The notes under the pieces are model-generated. The model had not been told where the DNA came from. It did not search any database and was given only the letters and a program-made list of their open reading frames with translations. Positions 5,626 to 25,053 of a DNA stretch of 64,000 bases are shown piece by piece (the stretch's first letter is position 1; every line of letters begins with the position of its first letter). The DNA comes from Segetibacter sp. 3557_3 (lineage in GTDB: Bacteria; Bacteroidota; Bacteroidia; Chitinophagales; Chitinophagaceae). The stretch is taken from NCBI RefSeq assembly GCF_004354985.1, contig NZ_SMSK01000012.1, positions 62,001-126,000 of the forward strand. The letters run 5' to 3'. The position numbers and the translations under genes were made by a program.

Positions 5626-7893
5626 ATGAAAAAATTTCCAGCGAAAATGACCTGTGCAATTCTTGCACTTTCAACTTTGTTTATCTATGCGTCATTTACT
5701 ACAAACACCCCGGATAAGATTTATTCCAATAGCGACAGTGTTTCAACCTGGCGTCAATACGGTGGTGGACCGGACCAGTCGAAATACTTTAGTGCTTCGC
5801 ACATTACCAAAGAAAATGTGAGCCAGCTCAAGGTGGCCTGGGTTTATCCTACTGCCGATTCCTTTCCAAACTTTTTTAGTCCGATCGTTGTCGATACCAT
5901 CATGTATGTGATGGCCAAAAACTCTTCGCTAGTAGCGGTAAATGCGCAAACCGGTAAAGAGATTTGGATACATGCCAACCTGCAGGGATTAACGCGCAGA
6001 GGAATGAACTACTGGGAGAGTAAAGACCGGAAGGACAGGCGCCTATTATTTACCCTGAACAATACATTGCAGGCTATTGATGCCCTGACCGGGAAGTCTG
6101 TTATGACTTTTGGCAAGGACGGTTATGTGGATATGAGGGAGGGCCTCGGCCGTGTTCCTTCGACCATCAGGAGAATGCAATCGATGATGCCCGGTGTTGT
6201 GTTTGAAGATCTTATCATTATGGGCTCAGCCCCTGGGGAAGGTTATTTTTCTGCACCCGGCGATGTCCGGGCTTATAATGTAGTTACCGGAAAGCTGGCC
6301 TGGACCTTTCATACCATTCCACGCCCCGGTGAATTTGGTTATGATACCTGGCCAAAAGATGCCTATAAATATGTAGGCGGCACAAACGTATGGAGCGAAA
6401 TCTCTATTGATGCTGCAAGAGGCATTGCCTACCTGCCCATTGGTTCGCCAACGTACGACTTTTATGGTGCTGACAGAACCGGAACCAACCTATTTGGCAA
6501 CTGCCTTGTTGCACTAAATGCCCGTACAGGAAAACGGATTTGGCACTTTCAAACGGTGCACCATGATCTTTGGGACTATGACCTTTCTTCTGCACCTCAA
6601 TTAATCACGGTAAAAAAAGAAGGCAAAAATGTTGATGCCGTTGCTGTCGCAACCAAACACGGTTTCATGTTTGTATTCGACCGGTTAAACGGTAAACCAA
6701 TATTCCCTATTGAAGAAAAGCCTTTTCCTGCAAGTCAGATGCCGGGCGAGAAATCGTGGCCCACCCAACCCATTCCAACGGTCGTACCTGATTTTACCAG
6801 GCATGCGGTAACCAAAGAAATGCTCAACCCTTATTTACCTGAAGATGAAAAACAGAAATGGTATAAGCGGATCGCAGCTGCAAAATCAGGACTATTTATG
6901 CCCCTCTCTGATAAGTATGAAACCATTGCGTTACCCGGTGCTTTAGGCGGTGTAAATTTTGGCAATACTGCGTCAAACCCGGGCAAGGGAATGGTGTATA
7001 TCCTCACCCAGGAGTACCCCTCTGTATATAAACTTGAAAAGGTTAAGTCAGCACGTGAACTGATGTCCAAAGACGAGGTAGAGAGAGCCAAGTCGATATT
7101 ATCTACGAGTTGCCGCTCTTGCCATGGCGACAACCTGACCGGAAGAGGTATAGCACCTTCCATTGTTACTTCCGGACAGCGGATGTCATTCGAAGAATTC
7201 AAAACAGTTTTGTCGGTTGGCCGTGGTCAGATGCCTGGTTTTGCCCATATCGACGAACAAAGAATGATTGCTGTTCACCGCTACCTCGGTGGTAGTCCTC
7301 TTCCAAGAGCAGGTTTTGGTCCCAGAAGAAGTCAGGCATCAAGAACCCCGGAGGGACCTGTAGTGGCTTCGGGTGGCGCACCAGTTAAACCAGATGTAGA
7401 CCCGGTTCCCGCAATGAATGATTATCCTAAACCGGTACCTCATCCGGCAAGCCGCTACACAACAGATTACGGTACCGCATGGCCCAATTTGTTGGGGCCA
7501 ACCTGGGCATGGGTTATGGCATATGATCTTAATAGCGGTACCGTAAAATGGAAACAACCACTCGGCGAAGATTCGGCTGCTATGGCCAGGGGTGATAAAA
7601 CATCCGGCGCCGTAAACGGCTCGCAACGTAAAGGCATGATTGTTACATCAACCGGGGTGCTCTTTTGTAACGGTAAGGGTGGAAAATTATATGCTTATGA
7701 TGCAGATAATGGAAAACTCTTATGGGAGACCACGTTAAGTAATGAGTCAAATGCCCAGCCGATAATGTATGAGTTGAATGGTAAACAATTCCTCGTGGTT
7801 AATTCAACAGCAGGTTTCTCCAGGGATAGTTATGACCACTCTAAAAAGGCTGGTGCTTTACCAAGGGGTTATGTAGTGTACTCGTTGCCTTAA
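5626..7893 (+). CDS. PQQ-dependent aldose/alcohol dehydrogenase with inserted cytochrome c domain
   Basis: 755 residues from the ATG at 5626, chosen because MKKFPAKMTC begins a Sec signal; a TTG frame start at 5584 adds 14 unlikely residues. Propeller motifs of the quinoprotein family are clear: WRQYGGGPDQSKYF, ALNARTGKRIWHFQ, WDYDL and, near the end, AYDADNGKLLWET. A haem c motif CRSCH lies at about residue 496, with a probable Met ligand in GQMPGF, and the propeller resumes afterwards (WAWVMAYDLNSGTVKW), so the haem domain sits inside the propeller sequence. Family members oxidise aldoses or alcohols in the periplasm and pass electrons to the respiratory chain. Glucose or xylose to aldonolactone is a reasonable guess. 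No PQQ synthesis genes are in the window. Confidence 0.9.
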   Translation: MKKFPAKMTCAILALSTLFIYASFTTNTPDKIYSNSDSVSTWRQYGGGPDQSKYFSASHITKENVSQLKVAWVYPTADSFPNFFSPIVVDTIMYVMAKNSSLVAVNAQTGKEIWIHANLQGLTRRGMNYWESKDRKDRRLLFTLNNTLQAIDALTGKSVMTFGKDGYVDMREGLGRVPSTIRRMQSMMPGVVFEDLIIMGSAPGEGYFSAPGDVRAYNVVTGKLAWTFHTIPRPGEFGYDTWPKDAYKYVGGTNVWSEISIDAARGIAYLPIGSPTYDFYGADRTGTNLFGNCLVALNARTGKRIWHFQTVHHDLWDYDLSSAPQLITVKKEGKNVDAVAVATKHGFMFVFDRLNGKPIFPIEEKPFPASQMPGEKSWPTQPIPTVVPDFTRHAVTKEMLNPYLPEDEKQKWYKRIAAAKSGLFMPLSDKYETIALPGALGGVNFGNTASNPGKGMVYILTQEYPSVYKLEKVKSARELMSKDEVERAKSILSTSCRSCHGDNLTGRGIAPSIVTSGQRMSFEEFKTVLSVGRGQMPGFAHIDEQRMIAVHRYLGGSPLPRAGFGPRRSQASRTPEGPVVASGGAPVKPDVDPVPAMNDYPKPVPHPASRYTTDYGTAWPNLLGPTWAWVMAYDLNSGTVKWKQPLGEDSAAMARGDKTSGAVNGSQRKGMIVTSTGVLFCNGKGGKLYAYDADNGKLLWETTLSNESNAQPIMYELNGKQFLVVNSTAGFSRDSYDHSKKAGALPRGYVVYSLP

Positions 7894-7940
7894 GCAAGCA
7901 GTATAATGATGAAGTATGAATCATGAATGCATTTATACTT

Positions 7941-8858
7941 CATCATTCCCATTGCGGGCGCAGCAAAGCAATCCCGTGTTAATGCAGAAGTATGAATGAT
8001 GAATGCATTTGTACTTCATCGTTCGTCATTGCGCGCGCAGCAAAGCAATCCCAAGTTGTAGCATCGTAAGCATATGTTAGCAGAAGCAAACCCTTGCCAA
8101 TCGTCATTGCGCGCGCAGCAAAGCAATCCCGTGTTAATGCAGAAGTATGAATGATGAATGCATTTGTAATCTGCAATTCGTCATTGCGCGCGCAGCAAAG
8201 CAATCCCTTTATTTAATTTTGAAGTATGAATGATGAATGCATTTGTAATCTGCCAATCGTCATTGCGCGCGCAGCAAAGCAATCTCATGTTGTGGCATCG
8301 TAAGCATATGTTAGCAGAAGCAATCCCTTGCCATTCGTCATTGCGCGGCAGCAAGGCAATCCCATGTTAATGCAGAAGTATGAATGATGAATGCATTTGT
8401 AATCTGCCAATCGTCATTGCGCGCGCAGCAAAGGAATCTCATGTTGTGGCATCGTAAGCATAATATTAGCAGAAGCAAACCCTTGCTTATCGTCATTGCG
8501 CGCGCAGCAAAGCAATTCCTTTTTTCTAATGATGAAGTATGAGTGAATATCGTTTACTTAACGTGAGTTGCAGAAATTGGTGAATAAAGCGATGCGGTAC
8601 AAGGGAGTGACACAACGATGGCAAATAGAATTGCCACAGCTGGTCACCAAAGATTTCTCTTAAGTAAACGACATTGAACTATGAATGATGAATGCATTGG
8701 TTATCTGCCATTCATCATGCTTACTGCTCACCGGAGCAATCCGAAGTTGTGGCGTCGTAAGCATATGTTAGCAGAAGCAAACCCTTGCCAATCGTCATTG
8801 CCCGCGCAGCAAAGCAATCCCATGTTGTAGCATCGTAAGCATGTGTTAGCAGCAGCAA
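7941..8858. repeat. Alternating three-module intergenic repeat array
   Basis: Module A is about 30 bp and contains CATTGCGCGCGCAGCAAAGC; copies begin near 7943, 8023, 8101, 8178, 8257, 8335, 8411, 8490, 8711 (decayed) and 8792. Between A copies lie one of two spacers that are themselves repeated. Module B, about 47 bp, contains GAAGTATGAATGATGAATGC (near 7976, 8131, 8208, 8364, and one interrupted copy at 8521/8677). Module C, about 48 bp, contains GCATCGTAAGCATATGTTAG (near 8053, 8287, 8441, 8743, 8822). The order is A-B-A-C-A-B-A-B-A-C-A-B-A-C-A, then a disrupted part. No coding sequence is credible. Module A resembles a dispersed intergenic repeat seen in many bacteria. Confidence 0.92.
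8541..8680 (-). mobile_element. MITE-like element, copy 1, nested in the repeat array
   Basis: The ends are inverted repeats: AATATCGTTTACTTAA at 8546-8561 and its near-complement CTTAAGTAAACGACATTG at 8659-8676. The internal 100 bp has no open frame. It interrupts a module B copy of the surrounding array; TATGA lies directly outside both ends, consistent with a 5-bp target duplication. Read on the minus strand it matches a second copy at 38490-38640, including TGGTGACCAGC, TTCTATTTGCCATCGTTG and CTTGTAC blocks. It is therefore a small non-autonomous element; no transposase is in the window. Confidence 0.75.
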
Positions 8859-8868
8859 GAACCAAGGC

Positions 8869-8899
8869 AAAAAAAGGGCCCTGTGTAAAACAGGGCCCT
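8869..8899 (-). terminator. Rho-independent terminator of the cupin gene
   Basis: A perfect 10-bp stem, AGGGCCCTGT pairing with ACAGGGCCCT around a 5-base loop, is followed on the minus strand by a run of seven T. It lies about 50 bp after the stop of the minus-strand cupin gene at 8949 and separates it from the repeat array. Confidence 0.9.
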
Positions 8900-8948
8900 G
8901 GACGAACCTTCAGGATTAGTAAGAATCTAAAGGTAAATATCGCTCATT

Positions 8949-10166
8949 TTATCGCTGGTCATCTTCACCCGCCACATCATAACCTCTCCACTTATAAGCT
9001 TTGGCAAGTTTTGCAGCTGCTGGCCATGCAACCTTGTGTTGTTCGCTGGCTACCCACTTGCGCCGGTTTTCTTCGGTATCAAATGCAATTTGTACCTGGT
9101 AATTGTATTCTGTTGGTTCAGCTTCAATTGATTTGCTGACATCTGCCGGAAACATGCGCAGCAACTTTGACCAGAGATAACCCGTTTGAACTTTCATTGC
9201 GGGAACATAAATGGAAGAATACATTTTTTCAAATGCTTCGCTGTTTTCTTTTGTTACGGTAAAGTCCATCTGCAATGCAATGCCTTTGGTTTTATCGGCA
9301 GGCTTCCTGGTCCCCTGGTCCTGGAGCTTATCTGTACTAATACCAACGACCAGTAACTGCAACTCGGTATTACCACGGTTTGATAATTTTAATGTTTCGC
9401 CTACCTTAACAAAAAAGGCATCATCCGCTTTAACAGCTGTAGAGTCACCATTGATGGTAACCGTACCCGAGCCATTCATAACATAATACACCTCTTCAAT
9501 ACCCGCCACCGGGCGCGGCTCACCAGAGCCACCCGCAGGTATCACAACATGGTCAACATGGTTCCAGTTGGTACCAAATACACCGGGACCCAGCTCGCGA
9601 CGATATAGCGCACCACTGCCGGGGTAAGCTGTATTATTTGCCCTGAGGCCCTCCCGTTTTAACTGGCTGGAAACAAATACCGGGATAGGATCCAGGTGTG
9701 CGCCCACACGTGTATCGCCGAGATCAAAGTTTTCTGAACGGCCTTTTACCTGGCTCACAGCGAAGTTGAGCCATTTAACAGGTTGTGCTGTTGCATTATA
9801 AATTGCATGTGCATCGCCTAATTTACAAGGAACAAGCGCAGGGGCCTTTAACCTGGAGGTATGACCGTTAATGGTAAATTCTGCTTCACCACTAAGGAGC
9901 ACATACATCTCTTCGATGCTGTGGTGAAAATGGTGGCCAATACCACTTTTTGGTTCTATCACGCCGGCGTGCAGGTAAAGAAAGTTGGTCGATAATGCCT
10001 GGCGTCCGATTAATTCGGTAAAGCCCATTTTTCCTGCTCCCGCATGCACTGCAGACAATGACCGGTATTTGGCTGGGTCATTTTGGATAACCCGTTTACT
10101 GTTTGCTTGTGCACAAACTGTTAAACAGGTGAGGACTGTGGATAATAGTAAAAGAGATCGGTTCAT
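8949..10166 (-). CDS. Exported bicupin protein with C-terminal alpha/beta-barrel domain
   Basis: 405 residues with a Sec signal ending near CAQA. Two cupin domains are visible: the first around residues 65-140 with GHHFHHSIEEMYVLLSG, holding the His/Glu metal ligands, the second around 205-275 (VDHVVIPAGGSGEPRPVAGIEEVYYVMNGSG). The last 100 residues (MDFTVTKENSEAFEKMYSSIY onward) look like a dimeric alpha/beta-barrel domain of the antibiotic-monooxygenase/EthD kind. No reaction can be assigned. It is on the same strand as the sugar-acid operon but 608 bp downstream, so it is probably a separate transcript, closed by the terminator at 8869. Confidence 0.8.
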   Translation of the reverse strand: MNRSLLLLSTVLTCLTVCAQANSKRVIQNDPAKYRSLSAVHAGAGKMGFTELIGRQALSTNFLYLHAGVIEPKSGIGHHFHHSIEEMYVLLSGEAEFTINGHTSRLKAPALVPCKLGDAHAIYNATAQPVKWLNFAVSQVKGRSENFDLGDTRVGAHLDPIPVFVSSQLKREGLRANNTAYPGSGALYRRELGPGVFGTNWNHVDHVVIPAGGSGEPRPVAGIEEVYYVMNGSGTVTINGDSTAVKADDAFFVKVGETLKLSNRGNTELQLLVVGISTDKLQDQGTRKPADKTKGIALQMDFTVTKENSEAFEKMYSSIYVPAMKVQTGYLWSKLLRMFPADVSKSIEAEPTEYNYQVQIAFDTEENRRKWVASEQHKVAWPAAAKLAKAYKWRGYDVAGEDDQR

Positions 10167-10774
10167 GTTGATGAAATTTGCCCCATAAAGGGAGAAAATG
10201 TTTGAGTTACTCTGATCAGCAATTGCCTGGAACGGCTCACCTCGGTCTACTTCACCAGGTTGTTCCGAACGGGTTTAGCGCTTTTCTTGGCTGTTCCTGA
10301 AAGATGAGTCTTAGCCATCAACGGCCAGCCGGAGAATGTGCACATGGATTAGAAAATCATAATTACAAAAGCGCATGTATGATAAAACGCTTTACGCGTT
10401 TGTTTACCGCTTTTTTGCAAATGACTTTTGGTCGTTGTTTATTAGTGTAAGTTGTTTTAAAGTTTATCGCCGGCAGGCAGGTGTAATCATTCTGCCCGGC
10501 AAATCAATGGGCAACTTTGGTCTTTAAGATCTTATTCCACTTATAGTAAACCCAAAATAAAGGTTTACGATCAATGAAAGCGGACCATAGTGAAAGCCTG
10601 AAGTTGCCCAAAGCTATGCGGATGAATGGAGGGTCGCCCCCCGTCCGAACCCGGTTCATCCGGGCGGGCGTCCGACTTGCGCAGCCGGGCGGGCAAGCAA
10701 AGCCTCCATGAAAAACAAATGTTCGCGACCAAGAAAAGTTTTCCTGTTTGTGAAAGAATAATCGGTTCAGATCA
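10167..10774. other. Intergenic gap with GC-rich hairpins
   Basis: No credible gene. A 100-residue minus frame running into the enolase-family gene is mostly translated repeat and is not believed. At 10640-10694 two GC-rich hairpins follow each other: CCCGTCCG with CGGGCGGGC (10640-10669), then GTCCG and CGGGCGGGC (10670-10694). The same motif occurs at 33373, 44520 and 49631. A weaker inverted repeat (GCCGGCAGGCAG with CTGCCCGGC) lies near 10470-10500. Confidence 0.65.
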
Positions 10775-12052
10775 CTATGCAAAAAACGGAACATTAGGTG
10801 TTGCATATTTTTTCATTGCCTCAATATTCAGATCAACCCCGATACCTGGCTTCTCAGAAACCCTGATGTAACTATCTTTTACCCAGTTTGCTTCATCAAA
10901 AGTTACAATCTCCCTGAACATGGGTTCTGTATGAAAATAAGATTGCCACTCCATCAGGTGGAAGTTAGGCACGGTAACACAAACGTGTGCACAGGCCATA
11001 GCTCCAAGTAAAGAAGCCACCATGTGCGGAGAGAAAGGAACATAATACATGTTGGCAAGATTAGCAATACGCTGACCTTCACCCAGGCCACCACATTTTT
11101 GCAAGTCAGGCATTACGATGTCTACACCATTATCGAGCAATTGCTTGAAACCATAACCAAGATATACGTTTTCGCCCGCAGCAATTGGTGTATTCGTTTC
11201 CGCTGCAATTGACTTGAATGCAGCATAATTCTCTGCCGGAATGGGCTCTTCTAACCAGGTAAGGTTTAAGGGCTCTACTTTTTTAGCGATAGCCTGTGCG
11301 GTTGCAAAATCGTACCGGCCGTGCATATCTACGCAAAGGTCAATTTTCGGCCCGACTGCTTCACGTACGGCAGCAAGCTGGTTGTACATCCTTTGTAATT
11401 CACCAGGGCTGGCCGTCCAGTTATAGCGGTCCTTCTTATCCGGATCAGATGCATAATCCAGGTCAAACTTTAACGCGTCGAAGTTCCACTTTTTGATGGC
11501 TTCTTTACCTGCGTCAGCAAAGTCTTTGGGTGTAGGAAATTGATTACGGTAAAGTGCTGTATCGCAGTATACCCTAACCCTGTCGCGGAGCTTGCCACCC
11601 AGCAACTGGTAAACAGGCATGTTATAAGCTTTCCCGGTCAAATCCCACATGGCTGTTTCAATAGCCGACAGTACTGCTACATACATACCTGATTGTCCGC
11701 CGCCGAAGTGAGCGCTCCTGCGCAGGTCTTCAAATATTTTATGCGGGTTCAACGGGCTTTGGCCCCTTAATCTTCTGCCAAGGTTTTGTACCAGGTGATA
11801 GGTGCCGCCGATGGCGTCTACACCTTCGCCCAAACCATAGATATCCTGGTTGGTAAAGATTTTTACAAAAAGGCTACCACGGATATATCCACATTTTACA
11901 TCGGTAATTTTTAAATCGGATGGGGGAGAGCTCATTGGCGTTTTCTCAATCGCGTCCTCCATTGGCCTGCCAAAGGTTGCCAGTGGGGCAAGTGGGGCCA
12001 GGGCTGCCGCGAGCCCGGCTTTTGATAAAAATGATCGTCTTGAATTCGACAT
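10775..12052 (-). CDS. Tat-exported enolase-superfamily (mandelate racemase-like) sugar-acid dehydratase
   Basis: 425 residues. The N-terminus has a twin-arginine signal (SRRSFLSKAG followed by a hydrophobic alanine-rich stretch). The mandelate-racemase subgroup metal ligands are Asp242 (VDMHGR), Glu268 (WLEEP) and Glu294 (AAGENVY), spaced 26 and 26 as in mandelate racemase; His343 in FSPHMVAS is the likely general base. Family relatives dehydrate aldonic acids (galactonate, gluconate, arabinonate types) to 2-keto-3-deoxy acids. The exact substrate is not readable. It is the last gene of the operon with RraA-like protein, transporter, gluconokinase and AraC. Export of a sugar-acid dehydratase is unusual; the Tat route would suit a protein folded before export. 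Confidence 0.88.
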   Translation of the reverse strand: MSNSRRSFLSKAGLAAALAPLAPLATFGRPMEDAIEKTPMSSPPSDLKITDVKCGYIRGSLFVKIFTNQDIYGLGEGVDAIGGTYHLVQNLGRRLRGQSPLNPHKIFEDLRRSAHFGGGQSGMYVAVLSAIETAMWDLTGKAYNMPVYQLLGGKLRDRVRVYCDTALYRNQFPTPKDFADAGKEAIKKWNFDALKFDLDYASDPDKKDRYNWTASPGELQRMYNQLAAVREAVGPKIDLCVDMHGRYDFATAQAIAKKVEPLNLTWLEEPIPAENYAAFKSIAAETNTPIAAGENVYLGYGFKQLLDNGVDIVMPDLQKCGGLGEGQRIANLANMYYVPFSPHMVASLLGAMACAHVCVTVPNFHLMEWQSYFHTEPMFREIVTFDEANWVKDSYIRVSEKPGIGVDLNIEAMKKYATPNVPFFA

Positions 12053-12127
12053 TGTAATCGTTTTAATTTTTCTGAAATGGAGTTGAGTATTCGATTTAAA
12101 TGGTTGATCCCGCTACTAACTTAGGTC

Positions 12128-13141
12128 TTAGAAGGTGTTGGTTTGTACGCCGCTTTCTCTTTGTTTGATAATTTCCTGCACCTGCTCTTTGCCAACCGGT
12201 AATTTGTTCACGTTGTCTTTAAGCCATTGTGTGAAGTCTTTCTGAATGGGATCGGCCCATCTTGTATCAATCTGTCCGGAAGTATATTTTCCTTCACGTA
12301 TACGGGTTTGACCGAACAGGTCTTCCAAACGGACACGTTCAGAATTCTTTACCACTCTCTCTGCCAAATGTGGTGGAATAAACATAACCATTCCCATTTT
12401 GCCTAATACCACATCGCCGGGCATTACCGTTACACCGTGAATATTCGTTGGCCTGTTAATTCCTACAATCATCGTTGTGAGGTCCCTGTTATTTCCGCCT
12501 CCGGGATTATGAAAGGAAGGATCGTAACTATTGAAGTAAGATGTAAAACCATTAAACTCCTTCAAACCTTCTACATCTCTTAATGCACCATTATAAACAA
12601 TGCCATTACCGGTTCTCGTGTAAATATCTGTACCTACTCTATCTCCAATGGTAGGGCCATTCTTTTTTGCGCCAAATTGATCAGCAACATATACGTCACC
12701 CTTTTGCAACTGTTCTACGGCCCAAACATTTTGAGCCCGCCTGCCCACCTTTTTTCCGTCGGCAGTTATCACGCTGTCTTTCCTGCCCATCGAATCGATG
12801 GCTCTCCATACATCGGGGCGACCCGGCATAAACGTGGCGGTAAAAGCACGACCGACAAGTACACTATCAGGGTTGATGATCTGTCCCCAGCCTTCAGCAA
12901 TTTGATACCTGAAGCCTCCTTGCCCCTGCACTACTTCCCATGCTTCTTCTATCGTTACAGCTTTCATTCTTTTAAGAATATCATCTGTTACTTTAGGTCG
13001 CCCATCGTGGAAACGATCGCCTTTCCAGTCAGGGGTTAGTGCAATAAGCTCTTCTTTGCTGGCCTGCACATATTGTGCTTGCAGGTGAGTTGTGAATACC
13101 ACTAATAAGGAAAGCAAAAACAAACGTTTGGTTTTAGACAT
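12128..13141 (-). CDS. Exported RraA/HMG-aldolase-family protein (paralogue 1)
   Basis: 337 residues, with a Sec signal ending at LQAQ (about residue 23). The body is the RraA-like fold: GALRD with Arg188-Asp189 as the catalytic pair of the HMG/CHA aldolase branch, and a late GDVVLGKMGMVMFIP segment matching the family's GD...GV...P motif. This branch cleaves 4-hydroxy-2-oxo acids to pyruvate plus a carbonyl compound, or decarboxylates oxaloacetate; the RNase E-inhibitor branch lacks a role outside the cytoplasm. Residues 25-60 are very close to the second copy at 50844 (ELI-LT--WKG-RF-DGRPK). It lies 75 bp upstream of the dehydratase gene, so dehydratase plus aldolase is a plausible periplasmic pair. 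Confidence 0.82.
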   Translation of the reverse strand: MSKTKRLFLLSLLVVFTTHLQAQYVQASKEELIALTPDWKGDRFHDGRPKVTDDILKRMKAVTIEEAWEVVQGQGGFRYQIAEGWGQIINPDSVLVGRAFTATFMPGRPDVWRAIDSMGRKDSVITADGKKVGRRAQNVWAVEQLQKGDVYVADQFGAKKNGPTIGDRVGTDIYTRTGNGIVYNGALRDVEGLKEFNGFTSYFNSYDPSFHNPGGGNNRDLTTMIVGINRPTNIHGVTVMPGDVVLGKMGMVMFIPPHLAERVVKNSERVRLEDLFGQTRIREGKYTSGQIDTRWADPIQKDFTQWLKDNVNKLPVGKEQVQEIIKQRESGVQTNTF

Positions 13142-13170
13142 ACCGGCTTATATTTTAAATGAACAATGTT

Positions 13171-14325
13171 TTAGAGGATATCTGCTTTTAAAACTTCTTT
13201 TTCGTCGGCGATTTTTTCGTTGTCCACCAGGTCATCTTTTGGCACACGGTTATGCCACCAACTTGAAAGCAACGAGCCGGTGATATTCATCATTGGTCCG
13301 AAAACAGCAGGAGCCAGCGCAACTGCAGGACTGGTACTAATCTTAGACGCTAACGCTGATGCGAGTCCTGCGTTCTGCATACCCACCTCCAGTGCGATTG
13401 TCCGGCTATCTCTTTCATTAAACTTGAACAATCTTGCTGACCAGTAACCTAATAGATAACCCAGTGTATTGTGAATGAATGTTGCGAGTACGATTAAGGC
13501 ACCAACCTGTAAAAGTGCATCTCTTCCTTTTGCGATAATGATAACCAGGATCAGCACAATACCAATCATCGAAGTAATCGGCAGCACCTTGTTCAGCCAT
13601 GTCGCCTTTCCTTTCAGCAGGTAGCGCAACAGCATACCTGCAGCTACAGGAATAACTACCATCTTCACCATTTCCCAAACCATATCGAGGAGGTGAATGG
13701 TAATAAAACTTCCTCCGAGGAACCGCATAAGCAAGGGGGTTAGTAAGGGTGCCAGTAAGGTTGACACCGTGGTGACAGATACAGACAGCGCCAGGTTGCC
13801 ACGCGATAAATAACACATCACATTTGATGCGAGGCCACTGGGAGAACAACCAACGAGTATGATACCGGCTGCTATTTCGGGAGGAAAATTAAACATATTG
13901 GCCACACCAAAACCTATCATGGGCATAATGGTATAGTGGCAAACGATTCCGATTATTACACCTTTTGGCATCTGGAGGATACGACTAAAATCCTGCATAC
14001 TCAACTCGGTACCCATACCAAACATGATGAGCTGCAACAGCGGTACGATAATAAGCGAAAGGTTGAAGCCCCCTAATGTTTTAAAATAATCAGGGTAGTA
14101 CATAGACAGGCTCACCGCCGCAAAAATCAGTACGGTGTAAGAAAACCCTTTCAGGAATTTGTTTCCCCTGAAAGCAACCACAAGGCTCAGGAAGAACAGC
14201 ATCAGCAGCCATCCGCCATACTGATGCATTTGCTGAATGCTTACAAAAATCCAGGCTGCCAAAAAGATACCGGCAGCAACGTAGCAAAGATTATAGATCG
14301 TGTTACTTTTCATACGAGCAATCAT
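13171..14325 (-). CDS. BASS-family (bile acid:sodium symporter-like) inner-membrane transporter
   Basis: 384 residues with about ten hydrophobic segments between residues 8 and 350. The family signatures are visible: GTELSMQDF in the first half, VGCSPSGLASNVMCYLSRGN near residue 160 and EVGMQNAGLASALA near residue 300. Family members carry organic anions with sodium, including bile acids, pyruvate and ketopantoate. The charged tail is cytoplasmic or disordered. The gene lies between gluconokinase (18 bp upstream) and the RraA-like gene (29 bp downstream), so import of gluconate or of a keto acid made outside is likely. A start at 14313 (MKSNT) is also possible. Confidence 0.87.
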   Translation of the reverse strand: MIARMKSNTIYNLCYVAAGIFLAAWIFVSIQQMHQYGGWLLMLFFLSLVVAFRGNKFLKGFSYTVLIFAAVSLSMYYPDYFKTLGGFNLSLIIVPLLQLIMFGMGTELSMQDFSRILQMPKGVIIGIVCHYTIMPMIGFGVANMFNFPPEIAAGIILVGCSPSGLASNVMCYLSRGNLALSVSVTTVSTLLAPLLTPLLMRFLGGSFITIHLLDMVWEMVKMVVIPVAAGMLLRYLLKGKATWLNKVLPITSMIGIVLILVIIIAKGRDALLQVGALIVLATFIHNTLGYLLGYWSARLFKFNERDSRTIALEVGMQNAGLASALASKISTSPAVALAPAVFGPMMNITGSLLSSWWHNRVPKDDLVDNEKIADEKEVLKADIL

Positions 14326-14343
14326 ATTGATTTAAAAAACGGG

Positions 14344-15876
14344 TTAGTTTCCGGCGTCTTGTTGCAAACCTGCAATTGCTTCAAATTCATCAAACAGCTT
14401 TACACTTAGTCTTTCAAAAATCTCGAAGTGCTTCATATATACTTTGTGGTGCTGCGCATGGGGAAGAAAACTGTCGGGCAGTTTCACCGTTTTTGCAGCT
14501 TCTTCCAGGTTTTCATATTGGCCGTTTTCTGTTGCGGCGAGTAAAAAGGAGCCATAAGCCACACTGTCTGAACCTGACCCCTGCTTTATATGAACGGGCT
14601 TGTTAAAAATATCAGCCATCATTTGTGTCCAGAAAGGATAAGAAGCAAATGTGCCGTTTGCAGAAAGACTGGTGTACGTGCGATGTTCTGAAAGGCTTTT
14701 GCCGATGTTATAAAAGGCATATAAAATTCCTTCGATAGTGGCGCGCACAAAATGCTTTTGTTCGTGCTTTATGTTCAATCCAAAATAAACACCCCGTGCA
14801 TTTGCATTCCAGATCGGCGCCCTTTCTCCCTGCAGGTACGGAAGAAAAATCAATCCATCAGATCCCACGGCAACCTTGCCTGCCTCATTAATCAGGTTCT
14901 CCATACAGTCCTCGAGATCGAAGGCTTTCTTGAAATCACCAAATTGTTTGGCATACCACTCAAACACCGCACCCGCATTGTTGGTCGGCCCCCCGGAAAC
15001 ATAGTTTCCTTCGGTTAGGAGGTAATTAAATATGCGTTGCTTTTCATCCTGTAGTACTTCTTTGCCGATCACGCGCACGGCCCCACTTTCTTCAAGCGTT
15101 ACCGTTGCTTTTCCATCACCCCAAACGCCTGCGCCTAGTGTCGCCATACATCCGTCGCTTGATCCGACAATGATTTTAACCTTATCGTGCAGGCCCAACG
15201 ACTTTTGATATTCTTTCTTTATTTTTTTTGGTGAATAAAAAACCGATACGAGATCCGCCAGCCTTTCCGTTTTTATACCGCTATGCTTTAGTGCATCAGC
15301 TTCCCAGTTCAAAGTATGAATATTTAGCATTCCGGTTGCAGAAGCCACACTGTAATCAATTACATATTCACCGGTTAGTTGCTGTATGATGTACGATTTC
15401 AGCGAAATGAACTTTTTTGTTGCCTGGAAGCGATCCTTGTCATTATTTTTTAACCACGTAATCTTATTGAGTGGTGACATGGGATGTATCGGGGTTCCGG
15501 TTTCTTTGTACAAAGATTTTCCAAGCTCGGAATTTTTTAGATCGTTTGATTCTTTTTTAGCCCGGTTATCCGACCAGACAATCGCGTTCCCAATAGGTGC
15601 CCCATTTCTGTCAATGGGCAATACACTATGCATGGCAGAACTAAAGCATATACTTACAACCTTGTAATTTTTGGGATGGATTTTATCGTTTAAGAAATTT
15701 TTCAGCAAGTACAACAGCGTAATGAAAATCTGCTCAGGGTCCTGCTCACTGAAATCCGGCTTTTCATGGAAAGTAGGATAGGCACCTTTTAGGGAGCCAA
15801 ACATTTTTCCCTGCATAGTACAGGCAACAATTCTTATTGCTCCTGTTCCTATTTCTATTGTGATAATACATTCCAT
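14344..15876 (-). CDS. gntK: FGGY-family gluconokinase
   Basis: 510 residues. The N-terminal phosphate-binding motif is IEIGTGAIRI, and the second domain carries the FGGY family segment LPYLQGERAPIW. The stretch FSSAMHSVLP followed by GTPIHPMSPLNKITWLK is the pattern I know from Bacillus-type gluconokinase rather than xylulokinase. It would phosphorylate D-gluconate to 6-phosphogluconate in the cytoplasm. It begins 2 bp after the AraC gene stops, so the two are co-transcribed. With the PQQ dehydrogenase at 5626 a glucose to gluconate to 6-phosphogluconate route is possible. Substrate specificity within FGGY kinases is not certain from sequence. Confidence 0.85.
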   Translation of the reverse strand: MECIITIEIGTGAIRIVACTMQGKMFGSLKGAYPTFHEKPDFSEQDPEQIFITLLYLLKNFLNDKIHPKNYKVVSICFSSAMHSVLPIDRNGAPIGNAIVWSDNRAKKESNDLKNSELGKSLYKETGTPIHPMSPLNKITWLKNNDKDRFQATKKFISLKSYIIQQLTGEYVIDYSVASATGMLNIHTLNWEADALKHSGIKTERLADLVSVFYSPKKIKKEYQKSLGLHDKVKIIVGSSDGCMATLGAGVWGDGKATVTLEESGAVRVIGKEVLQDEKQRIFNYLLTEGNYVSGGPTNNAGAVFEWYAKQFGDFKKAFDLEDCMENLINEAGKVAVGSDGLIFLPYLQGERAPIWNANARGVYFGLNIKHEQKHFVRATIEGILYAFYNIGKSLSEHRTYTSLSANGTFASYPFWTQMMADIFNKPVHIKQGSGSDSVAYGSFLLAATENGQYENLEEAAKTVKLPDSFLPHAQHHKVYMKHFEIFERLSVKLFDEFEAIAGLQQDAGN

Positions 15877-15878
15877 TG

Positions 15879-16778
15879 TCAGGCAGTTTCGTCAGATGGC
15901 GCTACGTGTTTTTTTCGAAATTCACTCGGGGTATAGCCGGTAAGCTTCTTGAAAGTTGTAGCAAAATGTTGTGATGAATAAAATCCTACATCCAGCGCTA
16001 TATCGGTAATCTGCACATCTATTCGTTTCAGCAATTTCAGGGCTTCGGAAATGCGAATGTTAATCAGGTAATTCAGGGGAGAAAAGCCGGTAAAGCCTTT
16101 AACCTTTTCCGAAAATGCCGTAATGCCTAATCCAACCAATGCTGCCATTTCATCAACCGTCCATTGATGTGAGAGATCCGCGCGAAGCGTTTGTTCGAGT
16201 TTCGTAAAGGCTTGCGGGAAATCCCTTCTTGCATTGTTGTGTCGCGTTAGTTGGCGGGCCACCAGGATGATCAATTCATCCAATAACTGGTTAATGCGCG
16301 CAACATAACCGATTTCCTGGTTGATAAATTCTTTGTGTATTGTTTGTAAAATGGTACCTGCGTCTTTAAGTTTAGGAAATACCTGGCAGTTACTTACAAG
16401 TAGCATTTTTCCTATCGTTGTGCATTCTGTGTCCGAAAGACGACTCCAGTTTCCTATCGCCAGCTTTCCCTGTTGTTCCAATTCCTGCTGCTCCAGGTGA
16501 ATCCATGAAACGGTGCCGATATCAAGTAAATCTTTTTCTCCGCCAAAGCATTGACCGGGTAAGATAATCGCCAGGTCACCTGGATAAAGTATATAATGTT
16601 GCTCCTCTATGTTCCAGTCGAAACGTCCATCTACTACATAATAAAAGCGCAGAAATTTGCAGGTTTCTTTTCTAAGCGAACCAAATTGTATCGTATTATT
16701 TTTTTTAAACGCGAATTCAAGCACATGAGGAAACGCATGAAGTTCCTTACATTCTTTTTTTAAAAAATATTGATTCAT
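15879..16778 (-). CDS. AraC/XylS-family transcriptional regulator
   Basis: 299 residues. The N-terminal half is a cupin-like sensing domain (YYVVDGRFDWNIEEQHYILYPGDLAIILPGQ split over residues 45-80). The last 95 residues hold two helix-turn-helix units: WTVDEMAALVGLGITAFSEKVKG, and ITDIALDVGFYSSQHFATTFKKLTGYTPSEFR. It is first in the minus operon and divergent from the second SusC gene, with 184 bp between them, so it may control both directions. It is the only dedicated transcription factor recognised in the window. No hybrid two-component or ECF sigma/anti-sigma pair is present. Confidence 0.92.
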   Translation of the reverse strand: MNQYFLKKECKELHAFPHVLEFAFKKNNTIQFGSLRKETCKFLRFYYVVDGRFDWNIEEQHYILYPGDLAIILPGQCFGGEKDLLDIGTVSWIHLEQQELEQQGKLAIGNWSRLSDTECTTIGKMLLVSNCQVFPKLKDAGTILQTIHKEFINQEIGYVARINQLLDELIILVARQLTRHNNARRDFPQAFTKLEQTLRADLSHQWTVDEMAALVGLGITAFSEKVKGFTGFSPLNYLINIRISEALKLLKRIDVQITDIALDVGFYSSQHFATTFKKLTGYTPSEFRKKHVAPSDETA

Positions 16779-16962: not shown

Positions 16963-19900
16963 ATGAACCCAAATCTCCACAGGCAGATTTCTGCACCATT
17001 TAAACGATTGTTTTTTTCGCTGCTGTTCCTGCTTTTATCAGCGTCCGCATTTTCCCAGGCCATTACGGGTACTATTACCGACGCTAACAAAAGCCCCATT
17101 AGTAAAGCTACCGTATCGGTGAAAGGCACACCAAGAGCGACTACTACGGATGATGCCGGAAAGTTCTCGATTAATGCATCGCAAAACGATGTACTTGTAA
17201 TCAGCTTTGTTGGCTTTGCTCAACAGGAAGTTCCGGTAAGAGGACAAAGATCCATAACTGTGTCCATGGTTCCGGATACCAGGAATCTTGATGATGTAGT
17301 GGTAACTGCACTTGGTATCAAACGCGCAGCAAGAAGTCTCGGTTACTCTGCAACAACCGCTAAAGTGGATGAATTGCAGCAAAACCGAACCAACAATTTG
17401 GCGACTTCGCTGGAAGGTAAAATAGCAGGACTGGATATTTCTCCCCCTTCTGCCGGTCCCGCATCCAGTAATAAGATTCGCATACGTGGTCAGTCGGCAT
17501 TTGCTGGCGCTGATAACAGCCCTTTGCTTGTAATAAACGGCCTTCCAATGAGCCAGGGCGCAACCAGCGCTGCTGGTGGTGGCGGCGGTGGTGATGCTAA
17601 CAGCCGTGATAGAGGCGACAACCTGCTGTTGGTTAATCCGGATGATATTGAAACGATGACGGTGTTGAAAGGCGCTACTGCTGCGGCGCTATACGGATCA
17701 AGAGCTTCGAATGGCGCTATAATCATTACAACAAAAAGCGGCGCGAAGAATACGGGCCTTGGTGTTGAGGTTACATCGGGTGTTAACGTCGACGAAGTAC
17801 TCGACCTTACCGATTATCAGATGGAATTTGGACAGGGCACGCTTGGTCAGGGCCAGCCTTCACGACCGGGGGTAAGGGGTGTAACTGCAGCGGCCACGGG
17901 CCAGTTCGGATGGGGTGAAAGATATGATGGGGTACCTACCATACAATTTGATGGCGTGTCAAGACCTTATTCTCCTCCTGCAAAAAGCCGGATCAAAGAA
18001 TTTTTTAATACCGGGCTTACTTTAAGTAATACCGTCGCACTGTCAGGTGGAGGTCCGAAGGGAAGTTTCAGGGTATCGTATTCGCAGCTGGATGCCCAGG
18101 GCATTACCCCTGCAAATGAATACAAGAGAAAGATTTTTAATCTTGGTTTGAATCAGAACCTCGGCGATAAACTTTCCGTGTCCGTCAACATAAATTATAC
18201 GAATGATAGAAACATCAACCCGCCCCAGGTTGGTGTGCAGGGGCAAGGTTACATGAACTTTATTGTAAGAACATCACCTGTTGTACCACTCACGGCTTTC
18301 CGGGAAAGTGCAGCAAACGCGGTAGGTGCTGAAAACCTCACCACCGGATTTGGAGCAACCATCCTTAATCCTTATTTCTATATACCAAGGCAATTTTACA
18401 AGAACTATGGCGACAGGGTACTTGGTACGGTTACTACAAAATACCAGTTTCTTAAATGGCTCTACTTACAGGGACGTATAGCAGTCAATTATGATGTAGC
18501 GCACGCTGAATTTAATAACCCTACAGGCGGCGCAGGCTTAACGCAATTTAGCAACGGCGGTGTCTATTATAATGCCTCCAGAAATACCTTCAACGGTACC
18601 TACGACCTAAACGAAAGCCAGTCGAAAGATATCAACTACGACTTCATACTGGGCGGTAATCATGAATTTAAAGATTTTACGGTTGGTTTTGGCTTTTCCG
18701 GTAACAGGAGAACCACCGTTGAGCGTGGTATAAGCGCAGGATCGGAGGCTTTTTTATCCAAGGATGTTTACACGCTTGCGAATGGAACAGTGTTTCGGCA
18801 GGGCCAAACATCTCGTCAGTCCTGGGTTAATTCGCTGTTTGGCTGGGCAGAGCTCGGCTGGAAGAATATGCTTTTCCTAAACGTAACCGGACGTAATGAT
18901 TGGTTTTCGGTACTGAACCCTGATTATAACAGCTATTTCTATCCCTCAGTAAGTGGCAGTTTTGTGTTCACCGAGTTACTAAAAGGCCAGCCCAAATGGT
19001 TAAACTATGGCAAGGTACGTGCTTCGTGGGCAGAAGTAGGGCAACTTACCAATGTTGGTCCTTATTACTTCAACATCAATTATAGCTATAGTACACAACA
19101 ATATCTGGGTCGTACGGTCGGATCAATCGGAACTAATGTACCTAACCAACAAATTGCACCCTACAGCTTACAGGAAAAAGAAGTTGGTTTGGAACTAAGA
19201 ATGTTCAACAACAGGTTGACAACGGATATGGCGTTTTATCATAAGAAAACCACCAACCAGATTTTAAGCGTATTAACCTCCACAGCCTCCGGTGGAAGCA
19301 GTGTTCTTCAAAATGTTGCGGCACTTGAAAACAAAGGTGTTGAACTCCTCTTCGATGCCACTGTTTTAAAAACCACTAATTTTTCATGGAACTCTGCGTT
19401 CAACACAGCGTACAACATTAGCAAAGTGCTCGATTTGGGTGGTCAACAAAGAATGACTGTAATCGACTGGTACAACAACGGCTCAAGCAACGAATTCATG
19501 GGTAAGCAGGTTTACGAAGTAGGTAAACCATTGTCGCAGATTGCTGCAAGAACCTACCTCAGAAATGCTAATGGACAAGTATTATTGGACAACAGGGGAC
19601 GGCTTATAGGCACACCAAACGATACGCTTTTTGGTAGCGCGCTGCCAAAATGGACCGGAGGATGGAACAACACTTTCCGTTACAAAAGACTAAGTCTTCT
19701 GGTACACTTCGACTATAAAGCTGGTGGCAAGTTTGTTTCGGGAAGCGCCCTGAATGCTTTAAGGCAAGGTCACTCAAAAGCATCTTTAGTCGGTCGCCGG
19801 CCTGGTGAAAACGGCGTTGTTTTCGACGGAATTTACAGGGATGGTCCTAACGCAGGAAAAGCAAATACAACAGCTGTTTTCGGCCAGGATTTCTATACTG

Positions 19901-20190
19901 ATTACCGCGGACAGCAAATAGCCGATCCTTTTATTTTCAAATCAGACTATATCAAGCTCAGAAACGTCACTTTAACGTATGATTTTACACGTATGATTGG
20001 CACTCAGCTCAATTGGGTTAAAGGGCTAACCCTGTCGCTTTCCTGCCGCAACGTTGCCATCATAAAGAAATATGTTCCGGATATCGATCCTGAGCAAATT
20101 GCATCTACCAATGATAACAGGGCCGGGTATGAGGCGGTGTCATTACCAACTACCCGTACATGGGGCGCTAACCTAAATGTGAAATTCTAA
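16963..20190 (+). CDS. SusC/RagA-type TonB-dependent outer-membrane receptor
   Basis: 1075 residues. A Sec signal ends at SAFSQ, followed by a carboxypeptidase-regulatory-like beta-sandwich (ITGTITDANKSPISKATVSVKG, residues about 34-110), then the TonB-interacting DDVVVTALGIKR segment and plug (KIRIRGQSAF, residues about 115-270), then the barrel to the C-terminal NVKF. A run of six glycines lies in the plug near residue 205. The VVVTALGI subtype usually pairs with a SusD of the SusD_2 kind, and that is what follows 12 bp later. It imports oligosaccharides; the divergent AraC-gluconokinase operon suggests sugar-acid-bearing or xylan-derived ligands. Confidence 0.95.
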   Translation: MNPNLHRQISAPFKRLFFSLLFLLLSASAFSQAITGTITDANKSPISKATVSVKGTPRATTTDDAGKFSINASQNDVLVISFVGFAQQEVPVRGQRSITVSMVPDTRNLDDVVVTALGIKRAARSLGYSATTAKVDELQQNRTNNLATSLEGKIAGLDISPPSAGPASSNKIRIRGQSAFAGADNSPLLVINGLPMSQGATSAAGGGGGGDANSRDRGDNLLLVNPDDIETMTVLKGATAAALYGSRASNGAIIITTKSGAKNTGLGVEVTSGVNVDEVLDLTDYQMEFGQGTLGQGQPSRPGVRGVTAAATGQFGWGERYDGVPTIQFDGVSRPYSPPAKSRIKEFFNTGLTLSNTVALSGGGPKGSFRVSYSQLDAQGITPANEYKRKIFNLGLNQNLGDKLSVSVNINYTNDRNINPPQVGVQGQGYMNFIVRTSPVVPLTAFRESAANAVGAENLTTGFGATILNPYFYIPRQFYKNYGDRVLGTVTTKYQFLKWLYLQGRIAVNYDVAHAEFNNPTGGAGLTQFSNGGVYYNASRNTFNGTYDLNESQSKDINYDFILGGNHEFKDFTVGFGFSGNRRTTVERGISAGSEAFLSKDVYTLANGTVFRQGQTSRQSWVNSLFGWAELGWKNMLFLNVTGRNDWFSVLNPDYNSYFYPSVSGSFVFTELLKGQPKWLNYGKVRASWAEVGQLTNVGPYYFNINYSYSTQQYLGRTVGSIGTNVPNQQIAPYSLQEKEVGLELRMFNNRLTTDMAFYHKKTTNQILSVLTSTASGGSSVLQNVAALENKGVELLFDATVLKTTNFSWNSAFNTAYNISKVLDLGGQQRMTVIDWYNNGSSNEFMGKQVYEVGKPLSQIAARTYLRNANGQVLLDNRGRLIGTPNDTLFGSALPKWTGGWNNTFRYKRLSLLVHFDYKAGGKFVSGSALNALRQGHSKASLVGRRPGENGVVFDGIYRDGPNAGKANTTAVFGQDFYTDYRGQQIADPFIFKSDYIKLRNVTLTYDFTRMIGTQLNWVKGLTLSLSCRNVAIIKKYVPDIDPEQIASTNDNRAGYEAVSLPTTRTWGANLNVKF

Positions 20191-20202
20191 AAAGAAGGAA
20201 AA

Positions 20203-24225: not shown

Positions 24226-25053
24226 ATGAAAATTTACAGAACCACCGACGGCGTTGTTATTCAGAACGAGGGTAAATTCTATTTGTTACCAAACGAAGAC
24301 TGGGATGTTTTTATTAACGATGACGATCTTATGAGTAAGGCGCAATCCAGGATATCATCAGCTACCAGCGGAGGAAGGGAGTTAATAGGTACCGTGCTGG
24401 CACCTATGGTTAATCAGGAGCTGTGGGCATGCGGTGTAACTTATTTGCGCAGTAAAATTGGGCGGCAGGAGGAGAGCAAAGATGCAGGCGGAGGTGATTT
24501 TTATGCAAGGGTTTATGAAGCTGAGCGACCGGAAGTTTTCTTTAAGTCAACCGCACATCGGGTAGTCGGGCCAGGCGGGCAGGTTAAAATAAGAAAAGAC
24601 TCTACCTGGGATGTGCCTGAGCCGGAACTGACCCTGGTGGTAACCTCGTCGGGTAAAATTATAGGTTATACCATTGGCAACGATATGAGTAGCCGGAGTA
24701 TAGAAGGCGAAAACCCCCTGTACCTTCCACAGGCGAAAACATACGACGGTTGTGCAGCGGTTGGACCTTGCGTTTATGTAACAGAACAATCATTGGATAG
24801 TAATACCCAAATTCAACTTGAGATTACCAGGGACAACAACCTGGCTTTTGAAGGAAATATCCCCATCAGTCAAATGAAAAGAACACCCCAGGAGCTCGTG
24901 TCGTTTGTGTACCGGGAGTGTAGTTTTCCTTTTGGCTGCCTGATCATGACCGGAACCGGGATTGTTCCCGAGCAAGGCTTCACCTTACAAAGTGGAGACG
25001 TGATCAGGATCTCAATCGACGGAATCGGTCAGTTGGAGAACGTGGTGGCATAG
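24226..25053 (+). CDS. FAH-family 2-keto-3-deoxy-pentonate dehydratase
   Basis: 275 residues, cytoplasmic. The C-terminal fumarylacetoacetate-hydrolase fold begins about residue 70. The metal-binding motif is visible in VPEPELTLV, with the acidic residue of [16 protein letters not shown] completing the site; [11 protein letters not shown] follows. This pattern is that of KdaD/XylX-like enzymes, which dehydrate 2-keto-3-deoxy-pentonate to 2-oxoglutarate semialdehyde. Context agrees: pentonate dehydratase upstream, xylose isomerase downstream, and the semialdehyde dehydrogenase at 42782. A 2-keto-3-deoxy-acid hydrolase or aldolase of the same fold is the main alternative. Confidence 0.85.

Follow-up and report, generated by a model that had tools for sequence, protein, structure and literature searches.

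A candidate periplasmic route from sugar acids to pyruvate encoded by an operon of Segetibacter sp. 3557_3

An operon with two putatively exported enzymes

Here we describe a minus-strand operon within a 64,000-nucleotide stretch of the Segetibacter sp. 3557_3 genome (contig NZ_SMSK01000012.1, positions 62,001 to 126,000; hereafter the window). Headed by an AraC-family regulator, the operon continues with an FGGY kinase, a BASS-family transporter, an RraA-like protein and an enolase-superfamily dehydratase, the last two of which carry predicted export signals (Table 1). An original prediction, drawn from the letters alone, had proposed that these two proteins and a pyrroloquinoline quinone (PQQ) dehydrogenase oxidise, dehydrate and cleave sugars in the periplasm before small acids are taken up. 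Pfam and NCBIfam profiles recovered every gene it had named in its place, and the operon is as compact as described, with all genes on one strand and gaps of 2, 18, 29 and 75 nucleotides (nt) from AraC to the dehydratase. The genome comprises 6.75 Mb in 35 contigs, and the closest named relatives by operon, among the matches listed, are Bacteroidota.

Table 1. Features of the window discussed in the text (positions count from the first letter of the window)
Feature	Position	Strand	Profile matches	Remarks
PQQ-type dehydrogenase, exported	5626..7893	+	PF01011 531.6 bits	one haem-c site; proposed aldose oxidation
Bicupin, exported	8949..10166	-	PF07883 71.3 bits	extra C-terminal domain
Enolase-superfamily dehydratase, type MLE-A	10775..12052	-	PF13378 188 bits; PF02746 32.9 bits	Tat-signalled
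RraA-like protein	12128..13141	-	PF03737 54.3 bits (cut-off 24.5)	Sec-signalled; candidate 2-keto-3-deoxy-aldonate aldolase
BASS-family (SBF) membrane transporter	13171..14325	-	PF01758 143.6 bits (cut-off 24.3)	organic anion
FGGY carbohydrate kinase	14344..15876	-	PF00370; PF02782	gluconokinase-like; no signal expected
AraC-family regulator	15879..16778	-	PF12833 67.8 bits	first operon gene
SusC/SusD pair	16963..21786	+		divergent from operon; SusC start 16963
IlvD/EDD-family sugar-acid dehydratase	22322..24031	+	NF004784 899.9 bits (cut-off 539); PF00920	export signal not seen
FAH-family protein	24226..25053	+	PF01557 81 bits (cut-off 23.9)	Weimberg-like candidate; export signal not seen
Aldehyde dehydrogenase	42782..44380	+	PF00171 149.6 bits	export signal not seen
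Second RraA-like protein	50844..51770	+		Sec-signalled; R-D present, D of D-X20-R-D absent

The dehydratase and the RraA-like protein retain their active sites

The dehydratase begins with MSNSRRSFLSKAG, in which MSNSRRSFLSK precedes a hydrophobic stretch. Both the N- and C-domain profiles of the enolase superfamily match it, and the three acidic metal ligands of an acid-sugar dehydratase are in place. Residues D242, E268, E294 and H343 are unchanged in 33/33 aligned homologues, as is the RRxF motif of the signal, and the predicted combination of a twin-arginine translocation (Tat) signal with intact ligands therefore holds. A DxH followed by a later His is the motif of galactonate/mannonate dehydratases; the window protein has D242-M-H244 plus H343, while a second dehydratase type found at related loci (MLE-B) has D-H-Y-G-H or D-H-F-G-H at the DxH position, where MLE-A has H244. 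The nearest solved structure, 2qq6 (E 3.7e-89), bears a generic name only, and the NCBIfam models for galactonate, gluconate, mannonate and rhamnonate dehydratases were not reached, the best being NF010624 with 229.5 bits against a cut-off of 311.

The RraA-like protein starts with MSKTKRLFLLSLLVVFTTHLQAQ, a Sec-type start ending in AQ. Its active-site pattern reads D167-X20-R188-D189, D-X20-R-D being the form that we take the catalytic motif of the family to have. R188 and D189, the predicted Arg-Asp pair, are unchanged in 43/43 aligned RraA, and the full pattern occurs in 133 of 150 exported RraA, including the operon copy. An AlphaFold2 model of the protein (predicted local distance difference test (pLDDT) score 87.8) matched 3k4i, 3noj, 5x15 and 1q5x in Foldseek, as expected for the RraA fold. 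Against the 4-hydroxy-4-methyl-2-oxoglutarate/4-carboxy-4-hydroxy-2-oxoadipate (HMG/CHA) aldolase 3noj the match had an E-value of 1.7e-12 and a template modelling score of 0.48 by query and 0.67 by target, with R-D aligned to R-D. For the HMG/CHA aldolase, the accessible part of the source assigns stabilisation of the pyruvate enolate to Arg-123 and metal binding to Asp-124 (PMC5065237).

It is highly improbable that the export signals are real while catalysis has been lost, leaving binding or moonlighting proteins. Neither family shows any change of its metal and catalytic residues across the aligned sets; RNase E, moreover, is cytoplasmic. What such a reading has in its favour is E. coli RraA, which modulates the RNA degradosome (PMC5065237, accessible part).

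Among the 150 proteins, the window RraA sits on a long tree branch (0.97) and has small insertions relative to its orthologues, with active-site residues retained. The second RraA of the window has as neighbours an MBL-fold protein (49974-50804) and an exported protein that matches no Pfam family (47913-49571). A third exported RraA of the same genome (L053:6982-18739, contig C11) lies next to a GH39-like gene, with a glucuronate-type run further on.

Export signals are conserved among relatives

Loss of the signals among orthologues had been set beforehand as a refutation test, so we counted them in related loci. Within a family sample of 147 genomes, 34 have a relative of the window RraA at an E-value of 1e-40 or better; within a phylum sample of 395 genomes, with at most five candidates scored per genome, 24 have one. 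For the comparison we used 18 orthologue loci (the most similar places in the family sample), 20 other places picked by hand from the same sample, and 74 named loci, these being the best 80 of 567 relatives minus 6 under 6 kb. Signals were counted in the window plus 112 loci, excluding open reading frames cut by a sequence end and exact duplicates.

The signals proved to be conserved. With RRx[FLVIM] inside the first 75 residues as the criterion, a twin-arginine pattern was found in 87/88 MLE-A and 44/45 MLE-B proteins, compared with 0/16 aldehyde dehydrogenases, 0/35 FGGY kinases, 0/14 FAH, 2/16 IlvD and 3/62 BASS proteins as controls. A Sec-like start, judged by a custom hydrophobicity rule, was present in 143/150 RraA (controls: aldehyde dehydrogenase 0/16, FAH 1/14, IlvD 1/16, AraC 1/34). 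TatC is encoded in the genome, and with its conserved twin arginine the MLE-A dehydratase is a predicted Tat substrate.

The possibility that the signals are start-codon artefacts was rejected, given their conservation and the homologues on rhizobial plasmids that do without them. There, 31 records matched and two regions were opened (CP140797.1 and CP091033.1); in both, neither RraA nor MLE has a signal, and RraA directly follows MLE and the genes of a sugar ABC importer. The rhizobial RraA is 27% identical over 265 residues and has D-X20-R-D, and the rhizobial MLE is 29% identical. Relative to them the N-termini of the window RraA and MLE are 38 and 42 residues longer, and the window proteins enter the alignments only at residues 49 and 45.

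The exported pair is linked and partner-specific

A search for the same operon in other Bacteroidota had been suggested as a check, and it found the exported dehydratase beside RraA in most places. An MLE gene lies within 500 nt of RraA and on the same strand in 17/18 orthologue loci, 11/20 of the others and 67/74 named loci; in the orthologue exception (L042), BASS stands between the two. Many loci carry both combinations, one RraA with MLE-A and another with MLE-B, in a single gene run. Chance co-location was rejected, since the pair recurs in Chitinophagaceae, Flavobacteriia, Mucilaginibacter, Algoriphagus, Spirosoma and relatives of Lewinella, and also in L148. Such recurrence in many Bacteroidota suggests that sugar breakdown proceeds in part outside the inner membrane, an unexpected place for it.

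RraA also follows the type of its partner. On a tree of the 150 exported proteins (open reading frames under 200 residues excluded), one clade of 88 has MLE-A as partner in 82 cases and none in 6, with MLE-B and DgaE (see below) both at 0; the remaining 62 are divided among MLE-B (32), MLE-A (17), DgaE (7) and no partner (6). Each RraA took its label from the closest such gene, so that some are mislabelled where an operon has both dehydratases. On the tree the labels switch 20 times versus 47.2 in shuffles, and 0/200 shuffles were as low, a comparison limited by near copies and by a quickly built tree with flagged long branches. Clades that follow the dehydratase type are expected if each aldolase takes the product of its own dehydratase.

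The surroundings of the operon contain SusC/D pairs and xylan-type enzymes (GH10, GH39, GH43 and esterases), as well as GH95 and GH97. In the named loci, a Pfam scan of 100 of the 252 unlabelled neighbour proteins pointed to no single sugar, the commonest families including FecR, permeases, GH3, GH43, esterases and GH97. In L107 and L111 the exported RraA and MLE-A are followed by an alpha-glucuronidase (GH115 in L107, GH67 in L111) and UxuA-like genes, with UxaC in L107, a possible link to glucuronoxylan acids. In L100 and L105 the exported pair stands beside a 386-residue protein that begins in a Tat-like way and weakly matches UxuA; further neighbours are an HpcH/HpaI aldolase in L100, and a GntP permease and another enolase-family gene in L105. 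The same chemistry may thus take place in both compartments.

Such neighbours bear on whether the exported proteins serve to clear away unusual or oxidised sugar acids, arising for example from oxidative attack on lignocellulose or as 4-O-methylglucuronate, with the main flux passing through xylose isomerase and FGGY kinase. Both of the latter are present, the window XylA scoring 661.1 bits with TIGR02630 (cut-off 533.25), and the alpha-glucuronidase and UxuA-like genes of L107 and L111 fit such a role. However, AraC is found in 14 and a SusC-like gene in 14 of the 18 orthologue loci (SusD-like in 12), which looks like main catabolism, and a 4-O-methyl group would be expected on chemical grounds to block retro-aldol cleavage. 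We regard a clean-up function as improbable.

A PQQ dehydrogenase and a bicupin as putative partners

The window PQQ dehydrogenase lies outside the operon. It has a single CxxCH haem site (CRSCH; PF13442 28.6 bits, cut-off 27) and falls short of the membrane-bound PQQ glucose dehydrogenase model TIGR03074 (330.7 bits, cut-off 832.65). The bicupin, for which the structure model is poor (pLDDT 57.8), is encoded 608 nt downstream of the dehydratase on the same strand. A pattern scan placed 0 minus-strand terminator-like sites in this gap; right behind the bicupin (8899-8875) it marked a stem of 10 pairs with a run of T. Minus-strand terminator-like sites were also found within BASS (14277, 14174 and 13831), the gap holds promoter-like sites, and the scan totals are near those of shuffled sequence (promoters 13 versus 16.4, terminators 14 versus 9.9); any extension of the transcript to the bicupin is therefore tentative.

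Four other loci (L080, L081, L087 and L089) have a PQQ dehydrogenase with the bicupin directly behind it in the same gene run as RraA and MLE, and both proteins are 59-62% identical to those of the window. Because these orthologues share runs with RraA and MLE, we tie the separate PQQ gene of the window to the operon.

An alternative front end and signal-less counterparts

In six hand-picked loci (L055, L060, L065, L067, L068 and L069) the exported RraA is accompanied by a Tat-signalled pyridoxal phosphate (PLP)-dependent ammonia lyase of the DgaE family, a RidA-family protein that is likewise Tat-signalled, and an exported amidohydrolase; in L070 the set lacks RidA and includes FAH. The DgaE-type gene thus occurs in 7/20 hand-picked loci, together with the amidohydrolase in 7/7, RidA in 6/7, BASS in 6/7 and a PQQ dehydrogenase in 3/7, and some of these loci also carry a lactonase. 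In two loci scanned, the amidohydrolase/deacetylase exceeded its NCBIfam cut-off of 371 (429.7 and 436.1) and the DgaE proteins stayed under theirs of 385.3 (185.6 and 164.6). In ten of the 13 family genomes with a DgaE-type lyase, such a gene and an exported RraA are at most 5 kb apart, positions being compared by eye; the exceptions are G055, G059 and G053, the last of which has its DgaE at the edge of a contig and gave no match for an exported RraA.

DgaE chemistry yields a 2-keto-3-deoxy acid. In these loci an N-acetylated amino-aldonate would be deacetylated, then deaminated to the 2-keto-3-deoxy acid, and this cleaved by RraA, so that the clusters look like a periplasmic route for amino-sugar acids. 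That different chemistry would lead to the same product class, with the same RraA and BASS, is to us the most persuasive indirect argument for assigning RraA as an aldolase, and the presence of BASS in 6/7 loci fits a shared product.

Signal-less RraA proteins were found in sugar-acid contexts as well. Microvirga and Runella have another RraA with mannonate dehydratases or an enolase-like gene, a lactonase and a short-chain dehydrogenase/reductase (SDR); in the Segetibacter genome itself (L053), a signal-less RraA stands between an SDR and UxuA, after UxaC, and within this glucuronate-type run it is a candidate cytoplasmic 2-keto-3-deoxygluconate aldolase. The Halococcus and Spirosoma plasmid regions that were opened contain no annotated dehydratase.

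Transport and the cytoplasmic enzymes

BASS was seen in 13/18 orthologue loci, 10/20 of the others and 40/74 named loci. The window protein does not reach the submodels PanS (258, cut-off 400) or TIGR00841 (249.8, cut-off 326.3). The kinase had been called a gluconokinase; it is gluconokinase-like, with the gluconate kinase 3gbt as its best solved relative (6.9e-86), but its 444.6 bits with TIGR01314 lie below the cut-off of 648.55, and the name goes too far. The kinase might also be a xylulokinase acting with XylA, and the genome has nine FGGY genes. Among the signal-less enzymes, the IlvD/EDD protein does not reach the L-arabinonate dehydratase model (851.5, cut-off 882), and the aldehyde dehydrogenase scores 101.2 with its best NCBIfam model, 2,5-dioxovalerate dehydrogenase (cut-off 750).

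With such enzymes at hand, dehydration might be the only periplasmic step. BASS or GntP would then import the 2-keto-3-deoxy acid, cytoplasmic FAH and aldehyde dehydrogenase would convert it to 2-oxoglutarate (Weimberg), and RraA would act otherwise, for example by assisting the opening of the keto-deoxy acid or removing oxaloacetate-like side products. FAH (9/74) and aldehyde dehydrogenase (10/74) do occur in named loci and both are in the window, L079 and L105 have GntP-family permeases, and HMG/CHA aldolases act as oxaloacetate decarboxylases as well, according to the accessible part of PMC5065237. Nevertheless, FAH was not seen in 65/74 named loci, though it may lie elsewhere in those genomes; just one of the 7 DgaE loci (L070) has it; and the RraA clades follow the type of dehydratase, which is what one would see if RraA acted on the product of that enzyme. 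We consider restriction to dehydration unlikely.

A proposed periplasmic pathway

On sequence evidence, we lean towards the operon encoding a non-phosphorylated, Dahms-like pathway in the periplasm that would turn aldonate into pyruvate and an aldehyde. This proposal builds on gene content, spacing, conserved signals, catalytic residues and partner-specific linkage, which are observed directly at these loci. Oligosaccharides, from xylan judging by the neighbours, would enter via SusC/D and be split to monosaccharides. The PQQ dehydrogenase, by its family, would oxidise the aldose to a lactone or aldonate. The Tat-exported metal enzyme MLE-A, as its family and intact active site indicate, would then remove water to give a 2-keto-3-deoxy acid, and the Sec-exported RraA would cleave this through a metal-bound pyruvate enolate to pyruvate and a short aldehyde, which would be glycolaldehyde if the substrate were a pentonate. 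BASS would carry an organic anion inward. In a xylan locus xylonate or arabinonate is a plausible substrate, with pyruvate and glycolaldehyde as products, although we rate this choice of substrate as less likely than not. Sugar acid imported intact would be processed in parallel by the signal-less FGGY kinase, IlvD, FAH and aldehyde dehydrogenase.

Several points weigh against the proposal. First, the sample was selected: loci were picked via RraA, relatives are not independent, and 5 loci are common to the named and unnamed sets. Linkage is also incomplete, since the 500-nt range around RraA is without an MLE in seven named loci (L078, with BASS between, L138, L139, L141, L147, L149 and L151); of the four annotated loci from Acidobacteriota, L148 has the pair and L147, L149 and L151 lack any MLE. 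Second, the activities are assigned by family. The dehydratase scores below every NCBIfam cut-off shown, and within the accessible part of the open-licence PubMed Central literature no report was found of an RraA-family protein acting on a 2-keto-3-deoxy-aldonate. Seventeen of the 150 exported RraA do not match D-X20-R-D, comprising 16 with R-D only, the window's second copy among them, and the protein of L068, which is outside the pattern yet has R-D in the alignment. The motif is present in only 4/7 DgaE-partnered RraA, and G replaces the first D in the signal-less RraA of the Segetibacter genome, Runella and Microvirga; with this D missing or replaced, the arguments from DgaE and from the genome's own RraA rest partly on active-site variants. 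Third, the Sec rule falsely flags 15/35 FGGY kinases and is therefore no substitute for SignalP. Fourth, PqqE scored 110.9 bits, below the cut-off of 381.35, and PqqC had 0 matches in the genome, neither search having a positive control; PQQ may therefore come from outside. Lastly, BASS was not seen in 34/74 named loci, 13 of which are under 20 kb and so possibly cut off, at least two of the 34 (L079 and L105) have a GntP-family (gluconate-type) permease, and the IlvD, FAH and aldehyde dehydrogenase relatives of the window together with xylose isomerase are would-be competitors.

The BASS gaps, the GntP permeases and the cytoplasmic pentonate-type set suggest that some of the sugar acid is probably taken up unchanged, and we think that both compartments are used. 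The idea of a periplasmic pathway feeding small-acid import thus survives in part: conserved signals and the joint runs of PQQ dehydrogenase, MLE and RraA speak for the pathway, while the BASS gaps, the GntP permeases and the pentonate-type set speak against exclusive import of small acids.

More tentatively, and with slightly less than even confidence, we postulate a modular periplasmic pathway in Bacteroidota, in which an exported RraA-type aldolase would serve as a hub for interchangeable exported front ends and yield pyruvate without ATP or phosphorylation. The front ends would be two types of Tat-exported aldonate dehydratase or, for amino-sugar acids, an exported deacetylase with a Tat-exported PLP ammonia lyase and RidA. 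If true, this would place PLP enzyme chemistry in the periplasm and give the RraA family a new activity. Sugar skeletons would be cut to pyruvate in a compartment to which one normally ascribes hydrolysis and oxidation rather than central-carbon cleavage; the recurrent exported RraA-like, enolase-like, DgaE-like and RidA-like proteins would gain a function that explains their Tat routing; and polysaccharide utilisation loci would have to be re-read for what the cell imports and what may leak to neighbours.

Comparison with known systems

Oxidation on the periplasmic side is familiar, and the quinate route of acetic acid bacteria has a periplasmic dehydratase. Like our proposal, that route combines membrane-side oxidation with subsequent dehydration; in contrast, the accessible part of its description mentions neither an enolase-superfamily nor an RraA-like enzyme, nor any cleavage to pyruvate (PMC9171043). 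Searched by title and start of abstract, the open-licence PubMed Central literature yielded no description of an exported RraA/dehydratase route, and its accessible part no case of a periplasmic route with C-C cleavage. The non-phosphorylative pathways of SAR202 likewise pair many enolase-superfamily dehydratases with aldolases, but these belong to COG3836 and COG0329, and the word "periplasm" is absent from the main text as far as accessible (PMC10444878). For PUL 8 of Maribacter, the accessible part of the source describes the sugar-acid enzymes as cytoplasmic (PMC11036162).

At the level of single proteins, the window RraA shares with the HMG/CHA aldolase (3noj; PF03737) its fold, the R-D pair and the D-X20-R-D spacing, while differing in its export, its linkage to sugar-acid dehydratases and its low identity (15% in the Foldseek alignment). 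Similarly, the dehydratase has the metal ligands and the DxH/His pair of the enolase-superfamily galactonate/gluconate-type enzymes (NF010624, NF040790; 2qq6), but is Tat-signalled and below the cut-offs of those families.

Among pathways, the Weimberg route is represented in the window by the IlvD, FAH-family and aldehyde dehydrogenase genes, which lack signals and would form a parallel route. In the known Dahms and non-phosphorylated Entner-Doudoroff pathways, the dehydratase and aldolase are cytoplasmic and the aldolases are of other families. Judged by family, genes for the same three steps (aldose oxidation, aldonate dehydration and retro-aldol cleavage to pyruvate and an aldehyde) appear to be present here; unlike in those pathways, the dehydratase and the candidate aldolase carry signals, and the latter is of the RraA family. 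A parallel in gene order is the rhizobial MLE-RraA-ABC locus, where homologues of both genes stand side by side without signals and with an ABC importer, which looks like the pair's cytoplasmic counterpart.

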